Shown here piece by piece: positions 7,245 through 21,579 of a DNA stretch of 64,000 bases. The stretch lies in the NCBI GenBank assembly GCA_903861005.1, contig CAIOSP010000146.1, positions 1 through 64,000 on the forward strand, written 5' to 3'. The notes under the pieces are model-generated. The model had not been told where the DNA came from. It ran no database searches and worked only from the letters and a program-made list of their open reading frames with translations. Positions within the stretch are counted from its first letter, which is position 1, and each line of letters starts with the position of its first letter. The translations under genes and the position numbers were made by a program. This DNA comes from an uncultured Pseudomonadota bacterium (GTDB taxonomy: Bacteria > Myxococcota_A > UBA796 > GCA-2862545).

Positions 7245-10082
7245 TTGCTTTCTCCGAGCCTTCTTACCGGCGAGAACGCCGCTTTTCTCGATGAGCAGTA
7301 CAACCTCTGGCTGACCAGTCCGGACAGCGTCGACGCCAGCTGGCGCGCGTTCTTCGACGGCATGCGTGACGGCTCGGTCGACGAGGGCGCGTTTGTGCCC
7401 GCCGCACCTGACCGCCGCAGCATCTTCGCCAGCGCGTCTTCGTCGGTGGCGGTGGACGCGAGCAGCGCGCTGCGCATCGCCGTCCGCCAGACCGCGGTCG
7501 TGCAGTACATCAACGCGTGGCGCGTCCGCGGTCACTTCCGCGCGGACGTCGATCCGCTCGGTCGTCAGGCCAAGCGCGTGCACCCCGAGATCACCATCGA
7601 GCACTACGGCCTGAACGACGGGGACCTGGACGCGCGCGTCCCGACGGCCCCGATGTACGGCATGCCGGCGGTGGCGACCATCCGCCAGATCCGCGAGCGC
7701 CTGGCCATGGTCTACGGCGGCAGCATCGGCGCCGAGTTCATGAACATCGACGACCTGGACCAGAAGCACTGGGTCCTCAAGCGCCTGGAGGAGCTGCCGG
7801 ATCAGCAGGTCCTCACCGTCGAAGAAGAGCGCCGCATCCTGCGCAAGCTCGCGGACGCCGAGTCTTTTGAGCAGATGCTGCACACGCGCTTCCCGGGCAC
7901 CAAGCGCTTCTCGTTGGAGGGCGGCGAGACGCTCATCCCGCTGCTCGACCTGATGATCACCCGCGGCCGACGCAACGGCGTGCGCGAGATCGTCATCGGC
8001 ATGCCGCACCGCGGCCGCCTCAACGTGCTGGCGAACACGCTGGAGAAGCCTGTGCGCGCCATCGTCGAGGAGTTCCAGGACTTCCGCATGCCCACCCAGG
8101 GCACCGGCGACGTGAAGTACCACCTGGGCTACAGCTCGGACGTGCAGACCGTGGACGGCGAGACGGTCCACCTGTCGCTCACGCCCAACCCGTCGCACCT
8201 GGAGGCGGTGAACGCCGTCGTCGAGGGCCGCGTTCGCGCCAAGCAGGACCTCAACAGCGACCTGCACCGCGACTTCGCGATGGCTGTGCTGATGCACGGC
8301 GACGCCGCGTTCATCGGGCAGGGGTCGGTGGCTGAGACCCTTCAGCTGTCTGAGCTCGCGGGCTACCGCACCGGCGGCACGCTCCACCTGATCGTGAACA
8401 ACCAGATCGGCTTCACCACCGACACCCGCGACGCGCGCAGCACGCCCTACGCCACCGACGTGGCGCGTATGCTCGGCGTGCCGATCTTCCACGTGAACGG
8501 CGAAGACCCGCGCGCGGTCGCGGCCGTCGTGCAGATCGCGCTCGACTGGCGCCAGACCTTCCACCGCGACGTCGTCATCGACATGTACTGCTACCGCAAG
8601 CACGGCCACAACGAGGGCGACGAGCCGTCGTTCACGCAGCCGCTCATGTACGAGCAGATCCGCGCCCGGCCGACCCCGCGCCTGAAGTACGCCGCGCGCC
8701 TGGTGGCCGCGGGCCGCATCAGCGCCGCGGAAGCGGAGGCGATCGGCGTCGAGGCGCGCGCCGCGATGGACGCCGAGGCCTCGCAGCCGCTGGCCCCTGA
8801 GGCCAAGCACCCCACGATGAAGAAGGGCGGGGACGAGACGTCTCCGCTGCGCGGACGCTGGGCCCGCTGGCTGGGCGGCCACCCCGACGATCTCGTCCCC
8901 ACGCAGGTCCCGCGGGCCACCCTTCAGCATCTGCTAGAGCGTGTGAACCGCATCCCTGAGGGCTTCACGCCCCACGCGAAGGTTCGTCGCCTGATCGAGA
9001 ACCGCCTGGAGATCGCGCGCGGTGAGCGCCCGGTCGACTGGGCCATGGCCGAGCAGGCCGCGTTCGCGAGCTTGGTGGTCGAGGGCCACCCGGTCCGCCT
9101 GTCCGGTCAGGACAGTGGGCGCGGCACCTTCTCGCACCGTCACGCGGTCTGGACCGACGTGAACAACGGCGCCGAGCACTACCCGCTGCGCGGCATCGCC
9201 GACGATCAAGAGCAGGTCTGGGTCATCGACTCGTCGCTGTCCGAGTTCGCGGTCCTCGCGTTCGAGTATGGCTACACGCTCGACACGCCAGAGACGCTGG
9301 TGCTGTGGGAGGCGCAGTTCGGCGACTTCGCCAACGGCGCGCAGGTGATCGTGGACCAGTTCCTGGCGTCCACCGAGCAGAAGTGGAACCGCCACTCCGG
9401 CTTGGTGATGCTGTTGCCGCATGGCTACGAAGGGCAGGGGCCTGAGCACAGCTCGGCGCGTCTGGAGCGCTTCCTGCTGCTGTGCGCGCAGGAAAACCTC
9501 CAGGTCGCCAACTGCACCACGCCGGCCAATTACTTCCACCTCCTGCGTCGGCAGGTGATCCGCAAGCTGCGCAAGCCGCTGGTGCTCATGAGCCCCAAGA
9601 GCCTGCTGCGCAGCGAGCGCTGCGTGTCCACGCTGGATGATCTGGCGAGCGGCAGCTTCCAGCCGGTCTTCCCGGACGTGCGCAGCCCGGACCCGACCGG
9701 CGTCGAGCGCGTCGTCCTGTGCTCGGGTCACGTCTACTACGACCTGGCCGCCGCATTGGAGTCCATGCCGCCCGCCGAGCAGGCCAAGGTCGCCGTGGTG
9801 CGCGTGGAGATGCTCTACCCGTTCCCGGCCGAGGCCCTGCGCTACATCCTGCGGCCCTACTCGGGCGCCGAGCTGGTGTGGTGCCAAGAGGAGCCCAAGA
9901 ACATGGGCGCCTGGCCGGTCATCTCCGGCTGGATCCGGGACGAGCTTCCCGGGGGTGAGGCGGTGCGGTATGTCGGGCGCTCCGACTCTGCGTCGCCGGC
10001 CACGGGCTCGCACTCCGTCCACAAGCGGGAGCAGACCACGCTCGTGCAGGACGCGCTCACCATCTCGCCTGCGGGCAACTGA
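7245..10082 (+). CDS. sucA: 2-oxoglutarate dehydrogenase E1 component
   Basis: Thiamine-diphosphate enzyme that decarboxylates 2-oxoglutarate and passes the succinyl group to the lipoyl arm of SucB in the TCA cycle. At 945 residues it has full E1o length. The N-terminus (FLDEQYNLWL...DPxSVDASW type) is the E2-binding segment; the ThDP region contains GDAAFIGQG followed by NNQIGFTT; the transketolase-like middle has HRHAVW, and the C-terminal domain ends in the family pattern CQEEPKNMGAW. The TTG start is preceded by TGAGG with 6-base spacing; a CTG four codons upstream is the alternative, and no in-frame ATG or GTG fits better. sucB follows after 23 bases. Confidence 0.97.
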   Translation: MLSPSLLTGENAAFLDEQYNLWLTSPDSVDASWRAFFDGMRDGSVDEGAFVPAAPDRRSIFASASSSVAVDASSALRIAVRQTAVVQYINAWRVRGHFRADVDPLGRQAKRVHPEITIEHYGLNDGDLDARVPTAPMYGMPAVATIRQIRERLAMVYGGSIGAEFMNIDDLDQKHWVLKRLEELPDQQVLTVEEERRILRKLADAESFEQMLHTRFPGTKRFSLEGGETLIPLLDLMITRGRRNGVREIVIGMPHRGRLNVLANTLEKPVRAIVEEFQDFRMPTQGTGDVKYHLGYSSDVQTVDGETVHLSLTPNPSHLEAVNAVVEGRVRAKQDLNSDLHRDFAMAVLMHGDAAFIGQGSVAETLQLSELAGYRTGGTLHLIVNNQIGFTTDTRDARSTPYATDVARMLGVPIFHVNGEDPRAVAAVVQIALDWRQTFHRDVVIDMYCYRKHGHNEGDEPSFTQPLMYEQIRARPTPRLKYAARLVAAGRISAAEAEAIGVEARAAMDAEASQPLAPEAKHPTMKKGGDETSPLRGRWARWLGGHPDDLVPTQVPRATLQHLLERVNRIPEGFTPHAKVRRLIENRLEIARGERPVDWAMAEQAAFASLVVEGHPVRLSGQDSGRGTFSHRHAVWTDVNNGAEHYPLRGIADDQEQVWVIDSSLSEFAVLAFEYGYTLDTPETLVLWEAQFGDFANGAQVIVDQFLASTEQKWNRHSGLVMLLPHGYEGQGPEHSSARLERFLLLCAQENLQVANCTTPANYFHLLRRQVIRKLRKPLVLMSPKSLLRSERCVSTLDDLASGSFQPVFPDVRSPDPTGVERVVLCSGHVYYDLAAALESMPPAEQAKVAVVRVEMLYPFPAEALRYILRPYSGAELVWCQEEPKNMGAWPVISGWIRDELPGGEAVRYVGRSDSASPATGSHSVHKREQTTLVQDALTISPAGN

Positions 10083-10105
10083 ACCACTTCCTCGGAAGGT
10101 CTTGA

Positions 10106-11293
<1,188 letters not shown>

Positions 11294-11295
11294 TC

Positions 11296-12711
11296 ATGAA
11301 CGCCACCACTCGCGTCGACGTGCTCGCGCTGCCGGTCTCAGAGGCCGGCCTGCGCGCCTTTCAGGACTTGGGTCGCGGCCCCGTGTCGGCGGAATTCGCC
11401 GGCGCCGTGGAGTCCGCGCTCTGCGGCCAGGACGCCGTCGTGGCGCTGGACGACCCTGGCGCCGCCACGCGCCTGCTCGTCGGCTTGGCGATCGAGCTGT
11501 CGGACTCTGGCGCGGTGCTCGTGGTCGTGGCGGCCGCGGAGGTCGACGCGATGCGTGAGGTCGTCGCTCGGGCGGCGCGGCACGCGGGGCGGACCGTGGG
11601 CGACGCGGGCGCCGTTCGTGTGGTCGACGGTGGGGCGGACACGCTCCCGATGGACGGCGTGGTGGCGGTGCTCGGGCTGCTGGGCGGTCACATGCCCGCG
11701 GTGAGCGCGGCCGCGGACGTGCTCGGCATTCACCCGGTGCTGTGGGCCCACGCGCCGGACGCCGCGCGTGGCGCAGTCGAGCGCGCGTACCTTGTGGCGC
11801 TCCCTGACGGCGACTCCGTCGACGCGGTGGTGCGTGTGGTCGCGGCGCGGCCGGCGGACGCCGGTATGCTGGTGATCGTCGCGGACGCGGACGCGGTGTC
11901 GACGATCGCCGCGGGGCTGGCTTCGGCCGAGGTGGACGCGCTGGTGCTCGACGCACACGCCACGTCGCCGCGTCGACACGCGATGGCCACCCGCGCTCGC
12001 CGCGGTGAGGTCGAGGCCCTGATCGCAACCGAGGACGCGCTGCGCGATCTGGACGGTCGCGGTTTCGGCGGCGTGCTGTTCGTGTCGCCGAGCCAGGGCG
12101 AGGCCTGGGTTCGCCGCGCCGCACGCGCCCGTGAGGTCACGCTGCTGGTGTCTGAAGGTGAGCTGACGGAGTGGTCCGATGCCGTGATTCGCGCCGGTCG
12201 CGCCGCGGTGATCAGCGCGCTCCCGACCAACGATCAGACCGAGGCCAAGCGCCTGACGCGCGTGCGCCGCGCCGTGGGATCCCACGCCGGCAACCCTGAG
12301 CCCTGGCACGAGGCCCGCGTCCGCGAGCTACTCGCCGCACCTGGCGGCGCCGGCGTGCTGGCCGCGGCGCTGCGTGTGTTCCTCCGCGAAGAGCGCGAGC
12401 ACGTCGTGTCCGTCGCCAACCTGTCCGAGCACCACGCGTCGAGCGCCGAGCCGAACGCGTCGCGCGCCGCGGCCGAGCGCGAGGCTCCCAAGGCCGCGGA
12501 GCCTGCGCCCGCTCCCGCGGCCACGGACATCCCTCGCAAGAAGCGTCGGCGTCGGCGTCGGCGGCCTATCGGTGAGGCGGCGCCCGCTGACGGCGCCGCG
12601 ACCGGAGCCGACGGCGAAGACTCCGACGACGACGAGTCCCCCGAGGCCGTGGAAGACGGCCCCGTGGAGATCGACATGGCGGATCTGGACGCGGTGCTCG
12701 ATATCGAGTGA
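11296..12711 (+). CDS. degenerate DEAD-box RNA helicase-like protein (predicted catalytically dead)
   Basis: 471 residues, Ala/Val/Asp-rich. The layout follows a DEAD-box helicase but the catalytic motifs are gone. The Q-motif region (F-QDLGRG) leads into QDAVVALDDPGAATRLL, which aligns with rDvvxxAxTGxGKTxxF, so Walker A is lost. HPVLWAHAPDAARG aligns with the motif III segment (LLFSATMPxxIR). Residues 190-290 match the second RecA domain: LVIVADADAVSTIA (IV), LDAHATSPRRHAM (HGxxxQxxR), LIATEDALRDLD (V, LVATDVAARGLD) and RRAARAREVTLLV (VI, HRxGRTGR). No DEAD box is present. The C-terminus has an Arg/Lys run (415-423) and an acidic tail, as in DEAD-box RNA-binding extensions. It starts two bases after the sucB stop, probably as operon gene 3. 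Function unknown; non-catalytic RNA binding is a possibility. Confidence 0.6.
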   Translation: MNATTRVDVLALPVSEAGLRAFQDLGRGPVSAEFAGAVESALCGQDAVVALDDPGAATRLLVGLAIELSDSGAVLVVVAAAEVDAMREVVARAARHAGRTVGDAGAVRVVDGGADTLPMDGVVAVLGLLGGHMPAVSAAADVLGIHPVLWAHAPDAARGAVERAYLVALPDGDSVDAVVRVVAARPADAGMLVIVADADAVSTIAAGLASAEVDALVLDAHATSPRRHAMATRARRGEVEALIATEDALRDLDGRGFGGVLFVSPSQGEAWVRRAARAREVTLLVSEGELTEWSDAVIRAGRAAVISALPTNDQTEAKRLTRVRRAVGSHAGNPEPWHEARVRELLAAPGGAGVLAAALRVFLREEREHVVSVANLSEHHASSAEPNASRAAAEREAPKAAEPAPAPAATDIPRKKRRRRRRRPIGEAAPADGAATGADGEDSDDDESPEAVEDGPVEIDMADLDAVLDIE

Positions 12712-13543: not shown

Positions 13544-14000
13544 GCCGTGCCTTCCTGGCGTGAGGTGAGGGCGCGTCCGCGCCGCGACGCCGCTTAACCG
13601 CGCGAGCGCCCTGACGGCGCCGCACGGCCTCCGAACGCGTAGCGTCCGCGTCTACGCCAGAGTGTGTGCATGCCCTTATTTCGCGGAACCGGCTTTGCCC
13701 GGTACACCTCGTTGGAGCCACTGGTGGCCGAACGTCCGTTGGGCGTCTGGTTCAGGCTCCGGACGCGACTGTGTGCCCCGATCTTCGCGTGGGTGATTGA
13801 TTTGACTGCAGTTCACGGCGCTCTGTTCCGATTGCGATCTCTAGGTGACTCAGCGCGCATGGTGTTGCGCCTAGCTGTCACACCGTCGCCACACGCCGCG
13901 GCAGGAAGCAAATGCAACCGACCGTTCCTTGGAGAGCGCCCGTGACCGCGCTAGACAATCACGTCCGCGGCGTTACCCAGTCGCGCCGGAGGATTCGAGG
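13544..14000. other. intergenic region upstream of the signalling operon
   Basis: About 450 bases between the divergent trmB and PilZ-fusion genes, visibly less GC-rich than its surroundings. A 93-codon open frame (13664-13945, plus) exists, but its third-position usage (TTA, TTT, GGA, ATT, CTA) is unlike the flanking genes and it has no recognisable product, so I read this as promoter or leader DNA. A TTGACT at 13802-13807 has no good -10 box at normal spacing. No clear operator or RNA element was seen. Confidence 0.5.
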
Positions 14001-17000
14001 ATGAGCGGCTTGAACGAAGCGTCGTCTCCCACCTCGTCCGACGAATCGATGTCGGATGAGACGCGACGCGCCGACAGTCGCGGCATCAACCGCATCCCGG
14101 TGCGCCTCGCCGTGTCCGCACGCGGCGTCAGCGCGCCGCTCGGACGGACGCGCGACATCAGCCTGCAGGGCGTGTTCGTCGAGACCACGGATCCGTTCGA
14201 CGTCGGCGCGGTGCTGCCGATCAGCCTTGATCTGGACAGCGACGGCAAGCCGCTCGTGATCCGCGCAGAGGTTGTGCGTCGCACCTCCAATGGCATGGGC
14301 CTGCGATTCGACGCAGAGGATCAGGCTGCGGTTCGTCGGCTGCGTCGTTGGATTGTCGATCAGACCTCAGTGGTAGGTACGCAGCGCCAGGTCGAGCAGC
14401 TCCACGCCGCCAGCTCGCACGTCGAGCCGATCCGCACGCTCGGCCGCCTCCGCGAGAAGCTCGAAGAGATCCAGGCCAGCCGCGAGAAGGTCACGCTTGT
14501 GCCGCCGGATCGTCTGGCCCGTGACTACGGTCGCCTCACGCGCGTCCAACGCGAAGGCATCGAGTTCGCGCTCGACGGTCGCAGCACGCTTCGCGAAGGC
14601 GAAGAAGTCTACGCGTTGATCACGCTGGCGTTTGTGTCGTACTCGTTTGGCGTGCGTGTGCTGAGCGTCGACGACAAGCGCGTCATGTGCGCGCTGCCCG
14701 ATGTCATCGTGTACTCCGAGCGCCGGTCGAAGGACCGCGCGACCGCGCCGGACGGCACGCGCGTGCGGTGGCCGGCTCCGTGGCTCCCCGGCGCCATGGC
14801 CGAGCTGCCGGTCGTCGACCTCAGTCACGAGGGCCTGAGCTTCAGCCTGCCCGCGGAGCACTGCCTGCTGACCCCCGGCACGCCGCTCGATGAGGCGGAG
14901 CTGGTGTCGCAGGGCGCTAAGCGCACGCTGCCGAGCGCGATGGTCCGCCACATCACGCGCACGGAGGGTCCGGACGGCGCGCCGTGGGTTCGCGTGGGCG
15001 TGTCGTACGGTGTGCCCGCGTCGCGTCGCGGGTCTCACGACTCGACGGCGATCGCTGAGGTGTCGCGCGGTGGGTTCGCCGAGCGCATGCAGCGCATGTG
15101 GGGCGACTTCACCACCAAGCTCGGGTACGCGGCGCACAAGGGTCGCGAGAAGATCACGCCGGTCGCAGTGGCGTCCACGCTCACCGCGCGTCGAATCACG
15201 ATCAACGGCGGCAAGTTCCCGCTCGTCGGCATCCTGGATCGATCGGCGTCGGGCGGCGACCGCCTGAAGTGCCCGCTGGTCATCGTCGTGCCGGGCTTCG
15301 CGGGCCGTAAAGAGCAGATGACGTTCCTCGCGGGAACCATCATCGACGGCTTCCGTCGGCAGCACCGCGACATCGCCGTCCTGCGCTTTGACGGCAGCAA
15401 CAACCTGGGCGAGTCCGGTAAGGACCCTGGCTGCGAAGCCGAGGGCACGCACGCCCTGCACTACACCCTCTCCGGGCTGGTCTCGGACGTGTTCACCGTG
15501 CTGACCTGGGCGCGCTCCAACACCGTCGTCGACCCGACGCACATCATCCTGGTGTCGGTGAGCATGTCGAGCGTGGCCGTGCGCCACGTCCTGACCAAGC
15601 CCGAGTCCGCCGACGTCGGCCTTTGGGTGTCGTACATGGGCGCGCCGGACCCGGTGGACGCCATCCGCCTGGTGTCGGGCAACATCGACCTGCACGCCTA
15701 TTGGCAGCAGGGGCAGAAGTTGGGCGTCGTGTCGCTCGGCGGCGTGCTGACCGACGGCGACCGATTTTGGGCCGATCTCCACGCCTCAGGCCTGACAGAC
15801 CTGGAGTCCGCGCGCCGTGAGATGTCGGAGATCAAGTCCGACGTCGTCTGGGTGCAGGGCAAGCACGACGCATGGATGGACCCGCGCCGCGTGAAGTCCA
15901 TGATGGACATGCCGTCGAGCGGCGCGCGTGAGTACGTCGAGGTCGACAGCGGGCATCTGCCGCGCACGAGCGACGTGGCGATCGCCCAGTTCGTGAGCAT
16001 CACGCAGCGCATCTACCGCGCCGTGTATCAGGACCAGCTGCCGCCGTTCTCCCCGCCGATTGGCCGCATGGCCGCCATCGCGGAGTCGGAGTGGGCGCAG
16101 GTCCGCCGCAGCCGCCTGACCGACCGCAGCGTCTGGTGGCGCAACTACCTGTTGGACTCCGAGGGGCTGGGCTTCGACATCCTCCAGTTCGACCCCGAGT
16201 ACCGCAAGCTCATGGACCTCCAGGCCGGCCGAGTGGCGCCCGTGGGCGGCCGCGCGCTGGAGATGGGTGCGGGGACGGGCAACCTGACGCGTCGCCTGCT
16301 GAGCGCGGGCGTGGCTGAGCTTGTGGCGACAGACTTCGTGCCCGAGGCCCTGGACGCGATCCGCGCCAAGATCGGGCCGGACGAGCGCCTGTCGCTCAAG
16401 GTGATCGACATCGAAGGCACGCCGCTCTGCGCGGTCCGCCGGTGGATCGCCGGTGACCTGTTGAGCGCGCGCGTGCTGGCCGAGCGTGTGCCGGGCGTGC
16501 ACCGCCCGTCGCTCGACCTGCTCATCGACATGGCGGACGAGGGCGTTCACGCCGCCCTCATTGGCCATGGCATCGACGTGGGCGCGCTGGCCACCCAGCA
16601 CCGCATGACCCCAGCGTGCACGCGCCTGCTGGCCGACCTCAACCTGCTCGGGCGGCATGTCCGCGGCCGAGTCACCCAAGACGAGGTTCGCGCCGCCTTG
16701 CAGGTGCTGCCTGCGTCGCTGCTGGACGCGCCGGCGGGGCTGCCGTTCCCGGACGCCAGCTTCGACGCCGTCGCCATGAGCCTGGTTCTGTCCTACCTGG
16801 ACCACCCTGAAGACGTGTTGTTTGAGGCCTGGCGTGTGCTGCGCCCCGGCGGGCGCCTCATGGTGTCGTCGATGGTGCCCGACTCCGAGAACAGCAAGCT
16901 CTACGTGGACCTCGTGTCTCGCATCGAAGTGATGCCTGATGCCGAGGTGCCCGCCGGGTTCACGCGTGAAAAGCTCCTGGACTCCGCCCGCAATTTCGTG

Positions 17001-17168
17001 GATCATGCGGCGGAGCTGTTCCGCATCGAAGAGGAGGGGCTCTTCCGCTTCTACGACTCGGCCTCGCTGGCAGAGCTCGTGACGCGGCGCGGCTTTGTCG
17101 ACATCCAGGTCGACACGGCCTTCGGAAACCCTCCACAGGCGGTCGTCATCACCTCCCAGAAGCCATGA
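14001..17168 (+). CDS. fusion: two PilZ domains, LuxD-like alpha/beta hydrolase, SAM methyltransferase
   Basis: A 1055-residue protein. PilZ-1 (about 27-120) has R31-x3-R35 and DISLQG (52-57), the c-di-GMP motif pair. A YcgR-like segment leads to PilZ-2 (about 240-340) with R242-x3-R246 and DLSHEG (273-278), so both PilZ domains look competent. Residues 395-675 are an alpha/beta hydrolase resembling LuxD acyl-ACP thioesterase: VPGFAGRKEQM, nucleophile S521 in SVSMS (not GxSxG, as in LuxD ASLSA), acid D623 and H652. Residues 705-1055 are a UbiE-like methyltransferase (LEMGAGTGN 753-761; LPFPDASFDAV about 914-924), split by an insert of about 105 residues. The ATG gives MSGLNEASS behind GGAGG. 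The stop overlaps the histidine kinase start (ATGA). It probably turns c-di-GMP level into an acyl or methyl modification. Confidence 0.85.
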   Translation: MSGLNEASSPTSSDESMSDETRRADSRGINRIPVRLAVSARGVSAPLGRTRDISLQGVFVETTDPFDVGAVLPISLDLDSDGKPLVIRAEVVRRTSNGMGLRFDAEDQAAVRRLRRWIVDQTSVVGTQRQVEQLHAASSHVEPIRTLGRLREKLEEIQASREKVTLVPPDRLARDYGRLTRVQREGIEFALDGRSTLREGEEVYALITLAFVSYSFGVRVLSVDDKRVMCALPDVIVYSERRSKDRATAPDGTRVRWPAPWLPGAMAELPVVDLSHEGLSFSLPAEHCLLTPGTPLDEAELVSQGAKRTLPSAMVRHITRTEGPDGAPWVRVGVSYGVPASRRGSHDSTAIAEVSRGGFAERMQRMWGDFTTKLGYAAHKGREKITPVAVASTLTARRITINGGKFPLVGILDRSASGGDRLKCPLVIVVPGFAGRKEQMTFLAGTIIDGFRRQHRDIAVLRFDGSNNLGESGKDPGCEAEGTHALHYTLSGLVSDVFTVLTWARSNTVVDPTHIILVSVSMSSVAVRHVLTKPESADVGLWVSYMGAPDPVDAIRLVSGNIDLHAYWQQGQKLGVVSLGGVLTDGDRFWADLHASGLTDLESARREMSEIKSDVVWVQGKHDAWMDPRRVKSMMDMPSSGAREYVEVDSGHLPRTSDVAIAQFVSITQRIYRAVYQDQLPPFSPPIGRMAAIAESEWAQVRRSRLTDRSVWWRNYLLDSEGLGFDILQFDPEYRKLMDLQAGRVAPVGGRALEMGAGTGNLTRRLLSAGVAELVATDFVPEALDAIRAKIGPDERLSLKVIDIEGTPLCAVRRWIAGDLLSARVLAERVPGVHRPSLDLLIDMADEGVHAALIGHGIDVGALATQHRMTPACTRLLADLNLLGRHVRGRVTQDEVRAALQVLPASLLDAPAGLPFPDASFDAVAMSLVLSYLDHPEDVLFEAWRVLRPGGRLMVSSMVPDSENSKLYVDLVSRIEVMPDAEVPAGFTREKLLDSARNFVDHAAELFRIEEEGLFRFYDSASLAELVTRRGFVDIQVDTAFGNPPQAVVITSQKP

Positions 17169-19690
17169 ACGAGCAAGTCTCCGAGCAGTTCGAACGGGAA
17201 CTTAGGCGCACCGGCGCTCCCATGGTCCGGGTGGCCACGGCGCTGGGCACCATGGCGATCGTCGGCATGGCGTTGGTGGACCCATACCTGGCGGTTGGGG
17301 ACGATCTGCACTGGGCGCGCTGGGTGCGCCTTGTGTCGTCGCTCATGCTCATGGCGATCTACGGGTCGACCTACATCGGAGACTGGAAGGGCGAGAAGGT
17401 CCGGCCCGCGGCGATCGCCAGCGCGGCCATCACGGGCGGCGCGGTCATCATGCTGGCCTATTTCACGGGCGGCGGCGACAGCGACTACCACGAGGCCGTC
17501 TACGTCACGATCTTCGGCTACGCGATTCTGCCCATCCCCTGGAAGCGGTGGGACACGCTGGCCGTGTACATCGGGTTCATCGTCTTCTACGACAGCCTGC
17601 TGCTGGTGGGCGGCCGGCCCGGCGCATGGGGCGCGCTCCTCACGCACAACGCGCTGCTCGCCGCTGCCGCGTTCATCTCCGTCATCTTGCAGGGCATCAT
17701 CCGCCGCAGCCGCCTCAACGAGTTCGCACAGCGCGCTGAGCTGGCGAGCGCCAACGAGCGACTGACGGCGCTCGACGAGGCCAAGACCCGCTTCTTCGCG
17801 AACTTGAGCCACGAGCTGCGCACGCCGCTGACCCTGACGCTGGCGCCGCTGGACGCATTGCTGGAGTCGTCCCGCGAGCCGCTATCGGACGGGCAGCGCG
17901 AGAAGCTGGCGCTGGCCCAGCGCAACGCCCTGCGCCTGCTGCGTCAGGTCGACGATCTGTTGGCCCTGACCCGCGCCGAGGCCGCCAGCCTTAACCTGCA
18001 GATCTCGGATCTGGACCTGGTGGCGACGCTTCGCGAGCTGGCCGCGGACATCGCCGAGCTGGCGCGCCGCAAGCGCATCACGCTCGAACTCAAGGCCGAC
18101 GACGGTCTGCCCTTGGTCAGCGCCGACGCGCAGCTGGTCGAGCGCGTGCTCCTCAACGTGATCGGCAACGCCGCCAAGTTCGTGAAGGAGGGCGGCCGCA
18201 TCGTGCTCGGCGCCCGACTTGTGGACAACGGCATCGATCTCACGGTCGAAGACAACGGCATCGGCATCAGCGCCAGCGACCTGCCGCGCATCTTTGACCG
18301 CTTCTACCAGGCCGACAGCGGCAACAGGCGTGCGTTCGGCGGCACTGGCATCGGCCTCGCCCTGGCGCGCGAGATCGTGGAGCTGCACGGTGGTCGCATC
18401 CGCGCCGAGAGCGAGCTTGGCGTCGGAACGACCATCCACTGCTGGTTCCCGTTGACCCTGCCGCCGTTCGCCGCCAAGCTGGCCAAGGTCGCGCCGTCCC
18501 GCTCCAACGCTGAAGACGCGGGTCTGCCTGAGTGGCACGACGCCATCCGCACCGCGGCGAACTACCGCTTCCAGGGCATCGCGGACGCCACTGAGCGCCG
18601 CATCGCCCCGCGCCCGCAGCCCAAGGGGCAGGTGCCGACCGTCCTGGTGGTCGAGGACAACCCGGACATGATCCGGTTCATCTCGGCGCTGCTCGGCCAC
18701 GACTACAACGTCCGCTCTGCGACCGATGGCGAGCAGGGGCTGCGCTACGCCACCGAGCACCGGCCCGATCTGATCATCAGCGACGTGATGATGCCGGTGA
18801 TGGACGGCCTGGAGATGGGCCGCGAGCTGCGCAAGTCGCCTGCGACCAGCGCCATCCCGCTGATCTACCTGACCGCGCGCGGCGCGCCGGACGACCGCGT
18901 GCAGGGCATGGGATCAGGCGCGGACACCTACCTCGCCAAGCCGTTCCGGAACGAGGAGCTGCTGGCGTCGGTCGAGTCGCTGCTCTCTCGTCAGCGCAAC
19001 GTGCGCGAGGCCGCCGTGCTCCGCCAGGACGAGGCGATCGTCTACATGGCGTCGGGGATCGCCGAGGCGCTGGACTCGACCGTCAACTCGCTGAGCGCGG
19101 CCCGCGACGCGCTGGCGGTGACGCCCAAGCTCTCAGCCCCTATCGAGGCCGCGCTCGTCCCGCTGCTCGACCTCTCGGTCGCGCTGACTGAGTTCACGCG
19201 CGCGGGCGTGAAGGCGGTCGACGTGGCTGCCAGCCTGTCGGCCGTAATCGCGCAGGCGGTCGCCGCGATCAACGTCCGTCGTAGCGCCCCTGGCGTCGAG
19301 ATCCACGTGCAGGTCGAGTCCGGCGTGCGTGCTGGCCTTCGTGAGGACGAGCTAGCGCGCGTGGTCACCGCGGTGATGGGCCGCGCCGTTCGGGTCACGC
19401 CCGCGGGCCGGAACGTGTTCGTCAGCGCGCATGTGGGCGAGCCCGGCAGCGTCGCGCTGACGATCACCGACCAGGGGCCCACGCTCTCGCCGACGCAGCT
19501 TGAGCGTGTGTTCTTCCCGTTCAACGATGTGTCGCCGAGCGGCCCCGGGGGCATTCGCGCGGGCATGGCGCTGACCCACGCAGGCCGCCTGGTCACCGCT
19601 CGCGGTGGGGCGTTGTCCGTCGAGGTGGGCATCGCGGGCGGTACCACCGTGTCGATCCGGCTGCCCTTGTGGACCGAGCGTGCACCGTGA
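17165..19690 (+). CDS. membrane hybrid histidine kinase with receiver and a second degenerate kinase core
   Basis: 841 residues. Five or six membrane helices (about 20-175) form the sensor region, with no large periplasmic domain. A coiled linker leads to HisKA with phospho-acceptor H216 (SHELRTPL) and an intact HATPase (N331; DNGIGIS; FGGTGIGLAL). A receiver follows (about 490-610) with phospho-acceptor D540 (IISDVMMP) and K592. The last 220 residues look like another kinase core: a DHp-like helix (GIAEALDSTVNSL, His absent) and a weak ATPase domain (ITDQGPTLS, GGIRAGMAL) without the N-box Asn. The ATG overlaps the upstream stop (ATGA), and the TGA overlaps the next GTG start. Probably a sensor controlling the flanking c-di-GMP proteins. 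Confidence 0.92.
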   Translation: MNEQVSEQFERELRRTGAPMVRVATALGTMAIVGMALVDPYLAVGDDLHWARWVRLVSSLMLMAIYGSTYIGDWKGEKVRPAAIASAAITGGAVIMLAYFTGGGDSDYHEAVYVTIFGYAILPIPWKRWDTLAVYIGFIVFYDSLLLVGGRPGAWGALLTHNALLAAAAFISVILQGIIRRSRLNEFAQRAELASANERLTALDEAKTRFFANLSHELRTPLTLTLAPLDALLESSREPLSDGQREKLALAQRNALRLLRQVDDLLALTRAEAASLNLQISDLDLVATLRELAADIAELARRKRITLELKADDGLPLVSADAQLVERVLLNVIGNAAKFVKEGGRIVLGARLVDNGIDLTVEDNGIGISASDLPRIFDRFYQADSGNRRAFGGTGIGLALAREIVELHGGRIRAESELGVGTTIHCWFPLTLPPFAAKLAKVAPSRSNAEDAGLPEWHDAIRTAANYRFQGIADATERRIAPRPQPKGQVPTVLVVEDNPDMIRFISALLGHDYNVRSATDGEQGLRYATEHRPDLIISDVMMPVMDGLEMGRELRKSPATSAIPLIYLTARGAPDDRVQGMGSGADTYLAKPFRNEELLASVESLLSRQRNVREAAVLRQDEAIVYMASGIAEALDSTVNSLSAARDALAVTPKLSAPIEAALVPLLDLSVALTEFTRAGVKAVDVAASLSAVIAQAVAAINVRRSAPGVEIHVQVESGVRAGLREDELARVVTAVMGRAVRVTPAGRNVFVSAHVGEPGSVALTITDQGPTLSPTQLERVFFPFNDVSPSGPGGIRAGMALTHAGRLVTARGGALSVEVGIAGGTTVSIRLPLWTERAP

Positions 19691-21579
19691 GCGCGGGGCA
19701 GCGTTCACTCGCCCTGTCGGCGGTCGCGTCCGCGGCCATGGCCGCCGGTCTTGCGTCTCTGGCCTACACGGCGGACCATGGCGCGATCAGCGCGGGGATC
19801 GCGGGCGTCGCCGGCGGCGCGGCGGCGTGGCTCGGTATGCGTCGAGGCCTGCCGTCCGAGGAGGAGCAGCGGAGCCGACGCGTCCTCAGCGTCGGCTCGG
19901 GCGCGTGCCTGTTCACCTGGGGCTCCGACGACGAGATCTGGTTCTCGGATGGCTGGACCGAGGCCTTCGACATTCCGAGCGGGCGGCACACCAAGCCCGA
20001 GGTGTGGCTGGGTCGGGTCCATCCTGAGGACTTCGGCGCGCTTGTCCACGGGATCGGCGCGGTGCGGTCCGGTGAGCAGGCCGTGTTGCGGCAGCACTAC
20101 CGCATCCGCTGCGGTGAAGACTGGCACTGGTTCGACCTGCACGCGCGCCGTGTGGATGACGGCGGGGCGGCGTTGGTCACGGGCGCCGTTCAGGACGTCA
20201 CGCTCGCGCACTCCATGCAGACTCGGCTGGCACACTCGGCGTTCCACGACCCGCTCACGGGCCTGCCCAACCGCGCGCTCTTCCTGGACCGCCTGGAGCA
20301 CAGCACGGCGCGCGCGCGGCGCAACCCGCTGCACCGCTTCGCGGTGGTGTTCATCGACGTCGACAACTTCAAGGTGATCAACGACAGCTTGGGCCACCAC
20401 GCGGGCGACGAGCTGCTCGACATCGTGGCCAAGCGGCTGGCGACGTGCGCGCGGTCCGGCGACACCGTCGCGCGCATTGGCGGCGACGAGTTCACGGTCC
20501 TGCTCGAGCCGGTCGACAGCCCAGACGACGCAGACAAGGTCGCCCTACGCCTGCGCAACGCGGTTCACGGCAGCGCGGTCGTGGCGGGGCACCCCGTCGA
20601 GATCAGCACCAGCGTCGGCATCGCCTTCAGCAGCCCGGACTACACGGACGCCCTAGACCTGCTGCGCGACGCGGACACCGCGATGTACTACGCGAAGCGC
20701 GCGGGACCTGGGAACCAGCGCCGCTTCGATCAGGCGATGCATGAGTCAGCCAAGCGCCGCCTGAGCGTGGAAGCCGAGCTTCGTCGCGGGCTTGATGGCG
20801 ACGGACTGCTGGTCTACTACCAGCCGATCGTCAGTCTGGTGACCGGCCATCTCGACGGCTTTGAGGCGCTTGTCCGCCTGATCGCGTCGAACGGCGCGCT
20901 GATCAGCCCCGCCGAATTCATCCCGCTGGCCGAGAGCCAGGGGCTGATCGACAAGGTGCTCGACCGCGTGCTGGCCGACACCACGGCGCGCTTGGCCGAG
21001 TGGTCCAAGGTGATGCCCGACATCTACGTGAGCGTGAACGTGAGCGCGCGCTCGGTGGGAGCGGGTCTGGTCGGCAAGGTGCGCGACGCGCTCGCCCTGC
21101 ACGATCTGAGCACGGCCCGCCTGAAGCTCGAGCTCACCGAGAGCGTGCTGGTGGAGCCCTCCAGCCAGGTGGCGCAATCGCTGATCACGCTGGGCGCCAT
21201 GGGCGTGGGCCTGTTCATCGACGACTTCGGTACGGGCTATTCGTCGCTCGCGTACCTGCACCAGTTCCCGGTGTCGCGGATCAAGCTGGACCGCACCTTC
21301 GTCATGGCGCTCGACGGCGATCACGTGCCCGAGATCGTCGAGACGATCGTGACCCTGTCCGCGAGCATCGGCGCCAAGGTGATCGCCGAGGGCATCGAGA
21401 CGGCGAACCAGCTGGAGGCTCTGATCGCGCGAGGCTGCTCGTCCGGGCAGGGCTTCTTGTTCGCGCCTGCGCTGCCCGGCGAAAAGGCCGCGCAGCTGGT
21501 GCACGAGCGCCGCGGCTGGCCGCTCACCACGACGCCGCGACCGGCGCTGGTGTCGCGCGCACCGACCGCCAGCGCCTAG
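19687..21579 (+). CDS. PAS-GGDEF-EAL c-di-GMP synthase/phosphodiesterase
   Basis: 630 residues from a GTG overlapping the kinase stop (GTGA). The N-terminus has one or two membrane helices (about 7-50); a PAS domain (about 65-175, WFDLHARRV region) follows. The GGDEF domain has an intact active site (RIGGDEF, 263-269) and an I-site RSGD (256-259) exactly five residues upstream, so it should make c-di-GMP with product inhibition. The EAL domain keeps EAL (393-395), NVSARS, LTES, DDFGTGYSS, KLDRTF, EGIET and QGFLFAPAL, so it should hydrolyse c-di-GMP. Both activities thus look possible, set by PAS input or by the coupled kinase. Its TAG overlaps the stop of the convergent MFS gene within CTAG (21576-21579). 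Confidence 0.95.
   Translation: MSAGQRSLALSAVASAAMAAGLASLAYTADHGAISAGIAGVAGGAAAWLGMRRGLPSEEEQRSRRVLSVGSGACLFTWGSDDEIWFSDGWTEAFDIPSGRHTKPEVWLGRVHPEDFGALVHGIGAVRSGEQAVLRQHYRIRCGEDWHWFDLHARRVDDGGAALVTGAVQDVTLAHSMQTRLAHSAFHDPLTGLPNRALFLDRLEHSTARARRNPLHRFAVVFIDVDNFKVINDSLGHHAGDELLDIVAKRLATCARSGDTVARIGGDEFTVLLEPVDSPDDADKVALRLRNAVHGSAVVAGHPVEISTSVGIAFSSPDYTDALDLLRDADTAMYYAKRAGPGNQRRFDQAMHESAKRRLSVEAELRRGLDGDGLLVYYQPIVSLVTGHLDGFEALVRLIASNGALISPAEFIPLAESQGLIDKVLDRVLADTTARLAEWSKVMPDIYVSVNVSARSVGAGLVGKVRDALALHDLSTARLKLELTESVLVEPSSQVAQSLITLGAMGVGLFIDDFGTGYSSLAYLHQFPVSRIKLDRTFVMALDGDHVPEIVETIVTLSASIGAKVIAEGIETANQLEALIARGCSSGQGFLFAPALPGEKAAQLVHERRGWPLTTTPRPALVSRAPTASA

Follow-up and report, generated by a model that had tools for sequence, protein, structure and literature searches.

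A PilZ–hydrolase–methyltransferase fusion and its adjoining membrane kinase: a possible c-di-GMP-gated lipid signalling unit

Introduction

Why would a bacterium join predicted receptor domains for cyclic diguanosine monophosphate (c-di-GMP), a putative acyl hydrolase and a methyltransferase in a single polypeptide? The question is raised by a gene at positions 14001–17168 (+ strand) of contig CAIOSP010000146.1, from an uncultured bacterium placed in Myxococcota_A. The first 64,000 nucleotides of this contig were analyzed and are called the window here. The gene encodes a fusion of 1055 residues with the order PilZ, YcgR-like PilZN/PilZ, LuxD-like hydrolase and S-adenosylmethionine (SAM) methyltransferase, and it is followed at once by the gene of a membrane-bound hybrid histidine kinase. 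As an answer, falling just short of probable in our judgement, we propose that the fusion is a synthase, gated by c-di-GMP, whose product is a fatty-acyl and perhaps also methylated signal, and that the kinase is its cognate partner. The wider claim is possible, leaning to doubtful: a widespread, undescribed lipid quorum or signalling system, found in records whose titles name about four phyla. In it, a single polypeptide would free a fatty acyl chain and methylate it, with c-di-GMP controlling the process directly, and a dedicated membrane hybrid kinase would read what is made, so that an intracellular messenger gates the synthesis of an intercellular one.

Domain architecture of the fusion

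The open reading frame (ORF) begins with ATG at 14001, ends with a stop codon at 17166–17168 and is open throughout; an alternative TTG start upstream, at 13929, would lengthen the protein by 24 residues. A Pfam scan recognized PilZ at residues 22–118 (1.9e-16) and, in two parts, a methyltransferase (Methyltransf_11, 5.6e-17). It missed the hydrolase and the second PilZ, both of which surfaced with family profiles. The full-length model has a predicted local distance difference test score (pLDDT) of 85.1 and a predicted template modelling score of 0.67. The original prediction, made from the letters of the sequence, had described a 1055-residue PilZ/PilZ/hydrolase/methyltransferase chain at these coordinates, and ORF, Pfam and family profiles all bear this out. 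It had also suggested a search for homologous fusions. Using one peptide pattern, at least 62 related loci were found across genome contigs, most with the same domain order, which ruled out a chance or frameshift fusion. As a single pattern was used, 62 is a lower bound and is silent on members lacking the peptide. Four alignments were built: A1 with 28 members, and A2, A3 and A4 with the window plus 52, 50 and 43 loci, respectively. Truncated or broken loci were omitted from A2–A4, and L093 (loci carry L numbers) from A2 and A3.

The first PilZ domain (PilZ1; 14064–14354, +) has the motifs R27xxxR31 and DISLQG. The second is part of a YcgR-type PilZN–PilZ tandem (14487–15005, +), identified by profile, Foldseek and secondary structure. 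It consists of PilZN (about residues 163–235) and PilZ2 (about 236–335), the latter with R242xxxR246 and D273LSHEG278 (motif D273xS275xxG278). The borders of these two domains, like those of the methyltransferase regions, were assigned by us. A profile of 28 homologues matched YcgR/MrkH chains among the solved structures at E = 1.1e-3, and Foldseek with the full model returned the MrkH–c-di-GMP complex 5kgo (4.2e-11) and 3kyf (4.3e-10). When PilZN and PilZ were overlaid on a solved receptor, the root-mean-square deviation was 13 Å over both domains together, meaning that the single domains fit while their mutual arrangement does not. By pattern (RxxxR followed by [DN]xSxxG) and by the PilZN–PilZ fold, the region is a predicted YcgR-like PilZ receptor. 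It shares the tandem and both motifs with YcgR and MrkH, whereas the N-terminal PilZ and the catalytic domains are additions of the fusion.

Across the family, Pfam PilZ was found in 25 of the 28 members of A1. The PilZ2 pattern was present in 48 of 53 members in a loose form and in 35 of 53 in the strict form ([DN]xSxxG); the count was run on 54 rows, one of which (L093) was a wrongly picked ORF, and pattern scans, like the hydropathy scans used below, are rough. Judged from region lengths, the PilZ1 region is almost empty in one Myxococcota clade. Direct control of an acyl-hydrolysing enzyme by c-di-GMP would be the natural reading of these motifs. The PilZ motifs and the neighbouring GGDEF-EAL gene suggest gating by c-di-GMP, which would apply to most members of the family.

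The hydrolase occupies residues 405–690 (15213–16070, +) and was assigned by profile, Foldseek and VIA-align. Searched against solved structures, a profile of 53 homologues matched LuxD (1tht), the myristoyl-acyl carrier protein (ACP) thioesterase of Vibrio harveyi, at 1.6e-16, compared with 5.1e-9 for the runner-up, the alignment spanning positions 16–260 of the 286-position profile. The full-length family profile (28 homologues) matched LuxD at 2.3e-4. With the AlphaFold2 model of the isolated domain (mean pLDDT 95.6), LuxD again came first; its lead over a PETase was slight in Foldseek (2.5e-14 versus 1.4e-13), and in VIA-align it reached Z = 28.0, 250 residues aligning at 2.4 Å (next 26.1). 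Triad residues lying far apart would have refuted the original prediction, and this overlay on LuxD speaks against that, though only indirectly. The LuxD resemblance reported in the original prediction holds for the isolated domain with all three methods. The fold is shared over the whole domain, as are the S-x-S context, the Asp and the His; the difference is that here the enzyme is one domain inside a regulatory fusion.

The predicted motifs were likewise found as described: RxxxR and DxSxxG-type motifs in both PilZ domains, and in the hydrolase an S-x-S nucleophile (S519-V-S521), an acid and a His. Ser521, Asp623 and His652 are invariant in all 51 rows of A3, and so are Arg462, Asp464 and Ser472 in the 51 aligned full-length members. 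In A2 (53 rows), the Ser and Asp of the triad are invariant and the His nearly so. Such invariance of catalytic residues points to catalysis under selection. PF02273, the LuxD family of Pfam, was matched by 27 of 53 members at E ≤ 0.01, the member of one WOR-1 record reaching 4e-29. Together with a fold in which Ser, Asp and His align, this places the domain in the LuxD superfamily. Nevertheless, L105 scored 101.8 bits with the LuxD equivalog NF052253 of NCBIfam against a cut-off of 420, and for the window protein this family was not among the best 25 of 28 NCBIfam families; the hydrolase is therefore LuxD-like rather than LuxD. Within its own genome, the A2 profile found only the fusion at E ≤ 0.001, with no second LuxD-like copy. 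The PF02273 profile was silent there, but equally so in 14 of 14 control genomes, and is thus uninformative. With a standard LuxCDE aldehyde role in view, a LuxC profile was run on this genome and matched at 3.4e-17, yet unspecifically, since it also matched nine of the 14 control genomes.

The C-terminal domain (about residues 705–1055; 16113–17165, +) is a class I SAM methyltransferase by Pfam, alignment and model. It is split by a helical insert (about 805–905), which is missing from part of the family. Its matches are mostly small-molecule enzymes.

The adjoining kinase and its sensor

The kinase gene (17165–19690, +) encodes a membrane sensor, HisKA, HATPase, a receiver and a second HATPase-like stretch. 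In the window and in eight further loci, its first four bases are shared with the end of the fusion gene. A histidine kinase lies downstream in 52 of the 56 loci that hold the 3′ end of the fusion, in 42 as the next gene and in 10 after an MMPL-type exporter gene. "Next" means the first kinase match within 1.5 kb with no exporter match between; the 42 comprise 39 loci plus three that show the kinase start before their contigs end, 499 to 608 bases downstream. Of the remaining four loci, one has MMPL and then the contig end, and three are without a kinase match. As an upstream control, the 52 loci that have 2 kb or more of upstream sequence were examined, and a same-strand kinase match within 1.5 kb was seen in three.

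The first 200 or so residues of the kinase form a multi-pass membrane domain, mostly with four to six hydrophobic segments in a simple scan. D39, R55 and Y108 of this sensor are identical in 44 of 44 aligned rows, an alignment that omits the kinases of L069, L090, L105, L107 and L108. Run on 58 relative genomes, the sensor profile gave 28 matches at E ≤ 1e-8, spread over 27 genomes. The strongest 15 (E ≤ 2.5e-39) fall in exactly the 15 genomes that carry the fusion, each 18 to 66 bases from it. Pairwise divergence of the sensor correlates with that of the hydrolase (r = 0.96) at least as closely as with divergence in the kinase core of the same protein (r = 0.91), kinship being ignored in both. 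Because a membrane sensor kinase nearly always adjoins, the fusion may be the maker half of a lipid signalling system. The original prediction was right on domains, motifs and LuxD likeness; it had overlooked this kinase partner, together with the YcgR-type tandem, the clade without PilZ1 and the members without a PilZ pattern.

A proposed signalling unit

The nearest described case is the Phc system of Ralstonia. Its operon contains phcB, for a methyltransferase, phcS, for a kinase, phcR, for a receiver joined to a kinase domain, and phcQ (PMC8578825). The methyl ester of a 3-hydroxy fatty acid is made by PhcB and sensed by PhcS (PMC8578825, PMC11960443). There too, a methyltransferase gene precedes a histidine kinase gene, and a receiver and a further kinase-like region are found in the operon. 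In contrast to Phc, the methyltransferase of the present family forms one chain with a LuxD-like hydrolase and PilZ modules, and the receiver and second ATPase-like region lie inside the kinase. The Phc-type gene order, a methyltransferase gene beside a membrane histidine kinase gene, holds in the 42 of 56 loci with the kinase next and in the 10 with an exporter between. The proposed unit would thus have a layout like the PhcB–PhcS pair; the resemblance is one of layout, and membership is not claimed. Among the known quorum receptors are membrane kinases anchored by six spans whose ligands are lipophilic (PMC4821796). At the level of general description, CqsS and LqsS have in common with the present sensor a membrane bundle that lacks large loops and precedes the histidine kinase; by sequence and structure matches, the sensor is nearest to MASE8 and 8wcn.

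In the proposed mechanism, c-di-GMP would bind the PilZ modules and gate the catalytic half. By homology, the LuxD-like domain is expected to draw its fatty acyl chain from acyl-ACP or some comparable donor. The fused methyltransferase may then methylate the product, whether free or still bound, and a fatty-acid methyl ester could result; this is the weakest step. The product would be exported, and in one clade the MMPL/HAE3-type exporter encoded nearby may serve for this. The gene order, together with the conservation of the sensor, suggests that the kinase of the adjacent gene would sense the product in the membrane, and the GGDEF-EAL protein of the window operon could set the c-di-GMP level. 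An acyl enzyme, a methyltransferase, sometimes an exporter of hydrophobic compounds and a dedicated membrane kinase are the parts to be expected where one protein makes a signal and another reads it.

Titles and the beginnings of abstracts, largely from outside subscription journals, contained no description of a PilZ–hydrolase, PilZ–thioesterase or PilZ–methyltransferase protein, of a link between LuxD and a kinase or quorum system, or of a c-di-GMP-controlled autoinducer synthase of this kind. The words "thioesterase" and "hydrolase" are absent from the main text of a 2025 review of c-di-GMP effectors (PMC12564702), and "methyltransferase", "hydrolase" and "thioesterase" from the available text of a survey of YcgR homologues (PMC11800159). 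If true, the proposal would provide a concrete, testable chemical signalling system for Myxococcota, Acidobacteriota/Aminicenantes and other groups, most of them uncultured, and would tie c-di-GMP directly, at the biochemical level, to the production of a signal. Even if no signal is involved, c-di-GMP would here have an effector that carries an acyl hydrolase and a methyltransferase domain in the same polypeptide, a kind of protein not found in the titles, abstracts and texts searched.

Alternative explanations

Several observations weigh against the signalling proposal. L105, L107 and L108 are without any PilZ pattern, L105 also without Pfam PilZ, and the PilZ2 pattern fails in L060 and L094 as well. 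The window's own hydrolase reaches no Pfam family at E ≤ 0.01. In Foldseek with the full-length model, 8b4u leads (9.6e-12) and LuxD is only sixth (1.8e-10), other esterases ranking higher, so that the lead of LuxD appears only with the isolated domain. The methyltransferase matches are generic (CpaM, UbiE, BioC). Three Acidobacteria loci among the 56 (L057, L081 and L082) have no downstream kinase match, and the L105 kinase carries a different sensor, HisKA_7TM plus GAF. In 12 genomes without the fusion there are 13 other sensor matches, of 5.4e-33 or weaker; no such enzyme was seen around them, with ORF starts judged by eye and several stretches cut by contig ends. Pfam MASE8 was matched by 10 of 44 sensors at E ≤ 0.05; the window's own sensor received no Pfam name. 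The sole match in the Protein Data Bank at E ≤ 0.01 was to a diguanylate cyclase, in its membrane part (8wcn, 2.6e-4). Neither MASE8 nor 8wcn is a known quorum receptor. The adjoining kinase could instead regulate the operon. Since the kinase is the constant partner and a PilZ pattern is missing in some members, the core unit looks like the enzyme plus the sensor kinase.

The alternative that survives best is that the enzyme, controlled by c-di-GMP, acts on acyl lipids or thioesters of the cell itself, remodelling or detoxifying them, while the kinase senses the state of the membrane and regulates the operon, with no exported signal. We regard it as doubtful. The resemblance of the sensor to MASE8 and to a diguanylate cyclase membrane domain speaks for it, as do the weak matches of the MMPL proteins to hopanoid-type HpnN transporters, and the GGDEF-EAL gene suits an intracellular circuit. 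The almost one-to-one linkage of sensor and enzyme and their co-divergence, compatible as they are with this explanation, nevertheless exceed what shared regulation needs.

In a second alternative the kinase is the output: c-di-GMP would cause the PilZ protein to make contact with the kinase or to inhibit it, and the action of the enzyme domains would be local. PilZ adaptors acting on a methyltransferase (MapZ–CheR1) or with a kinase (HapZ–SagS) are known (PMC12564702), and both the wide presence of the PilZ2 pattern and the tight gene coupling of fusion and kinase would fit such a role. It is improbable, however, given that the catalytic residues are invariant and that the three members without a PilZ pattern retain enzyme and kinase.

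A BioC/BioH-type pair, in which an acyl-ACP carboxylate is methylated and then demethylated as in biotin synthesis, is highly improbable and was rejected: BioC does occur among the methyltransferase matches, but its scores (window 36.5 bits, L105 41.6) are far under the TIGR02072 cut-off of 184.95, the 18 BioC matches listed for the genome that carries the fusion do not include it, and the hydrolase is LuxD-like.

Neighbouring genes and family distribution

The third gene of the apparent operon (19669–21579, +) overlaps the end of the kinase gene in the window. It encodes a GGDEF-EAL protein with a weak PAS match below the Pfam cut-off. As the motifs of both GGDEF and EAL are present, the protein could make and break c-di-GMP. 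A relative lies downstream on the same strand in the window and six loci, and on the opposite strand in L060. In L066, L071, L074 and L109 (Aminicenantes/Acidobacteria), the GGDEF-EAL search gave weaker same-strand matches (86–98 bits) where the kinase gene ends. The MMPL-type exporter gene between fusion and kinase occurs in L085, L091, L092, L094–L099 and L101, and also in L093, all in one Myxococcota clade. Two of the MMPL proteins were scanned and matched Pfam MMPL, and NCBIfam HAE3 (hydrophobe/amphiphile efflux) below its cut-off. The weaker sensor relatives (L139–L151) sit in kinases and short proteins of the 12 relative genomes.

Matches to the fusion at E ≤ 1e-20 occur in 46 of the 282 genomes searched from the phylum. 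Of the 58 relative genomes, 54 have a match at E ≤ 0.001, mostly to generic methyltransferases, and the fusion itself is present in 15 by our reading of the match table. The 62 loci overlap with both genome sets. No plasmid relatives of the hydrolase–methyltransferase part were found at 1e-5.

Phyla were read from record titles, which name Proteobacteria, Deltaproteobacteria/Myxococcota, Acidobacteria/Aminicenantes, Ca. Anammoxibacter and WOR-1/Margulisiibacteriota/Saganbacteria; Ca. Anammoxibacter is represented by one locus (L104), for which contamination is possible. The three members without a PilZ pattern are of the Margulisbacteria type, and their N-terminal regions differ from the rest. 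In L081 (Acidobacteria), hydrolase (7950–10079) and methyltransferase (10028–11305) are encoded by separate, overlapping ORFs that part close to the domain border, either a real split or an assembly error. The proteins of L053 (titled Bifidobacterium breve) and L083 (titled a Klebsiella pneumoniae metagenome-assembled genome) cluster with deltaproteobacterial members, so these two record titles look wrong.

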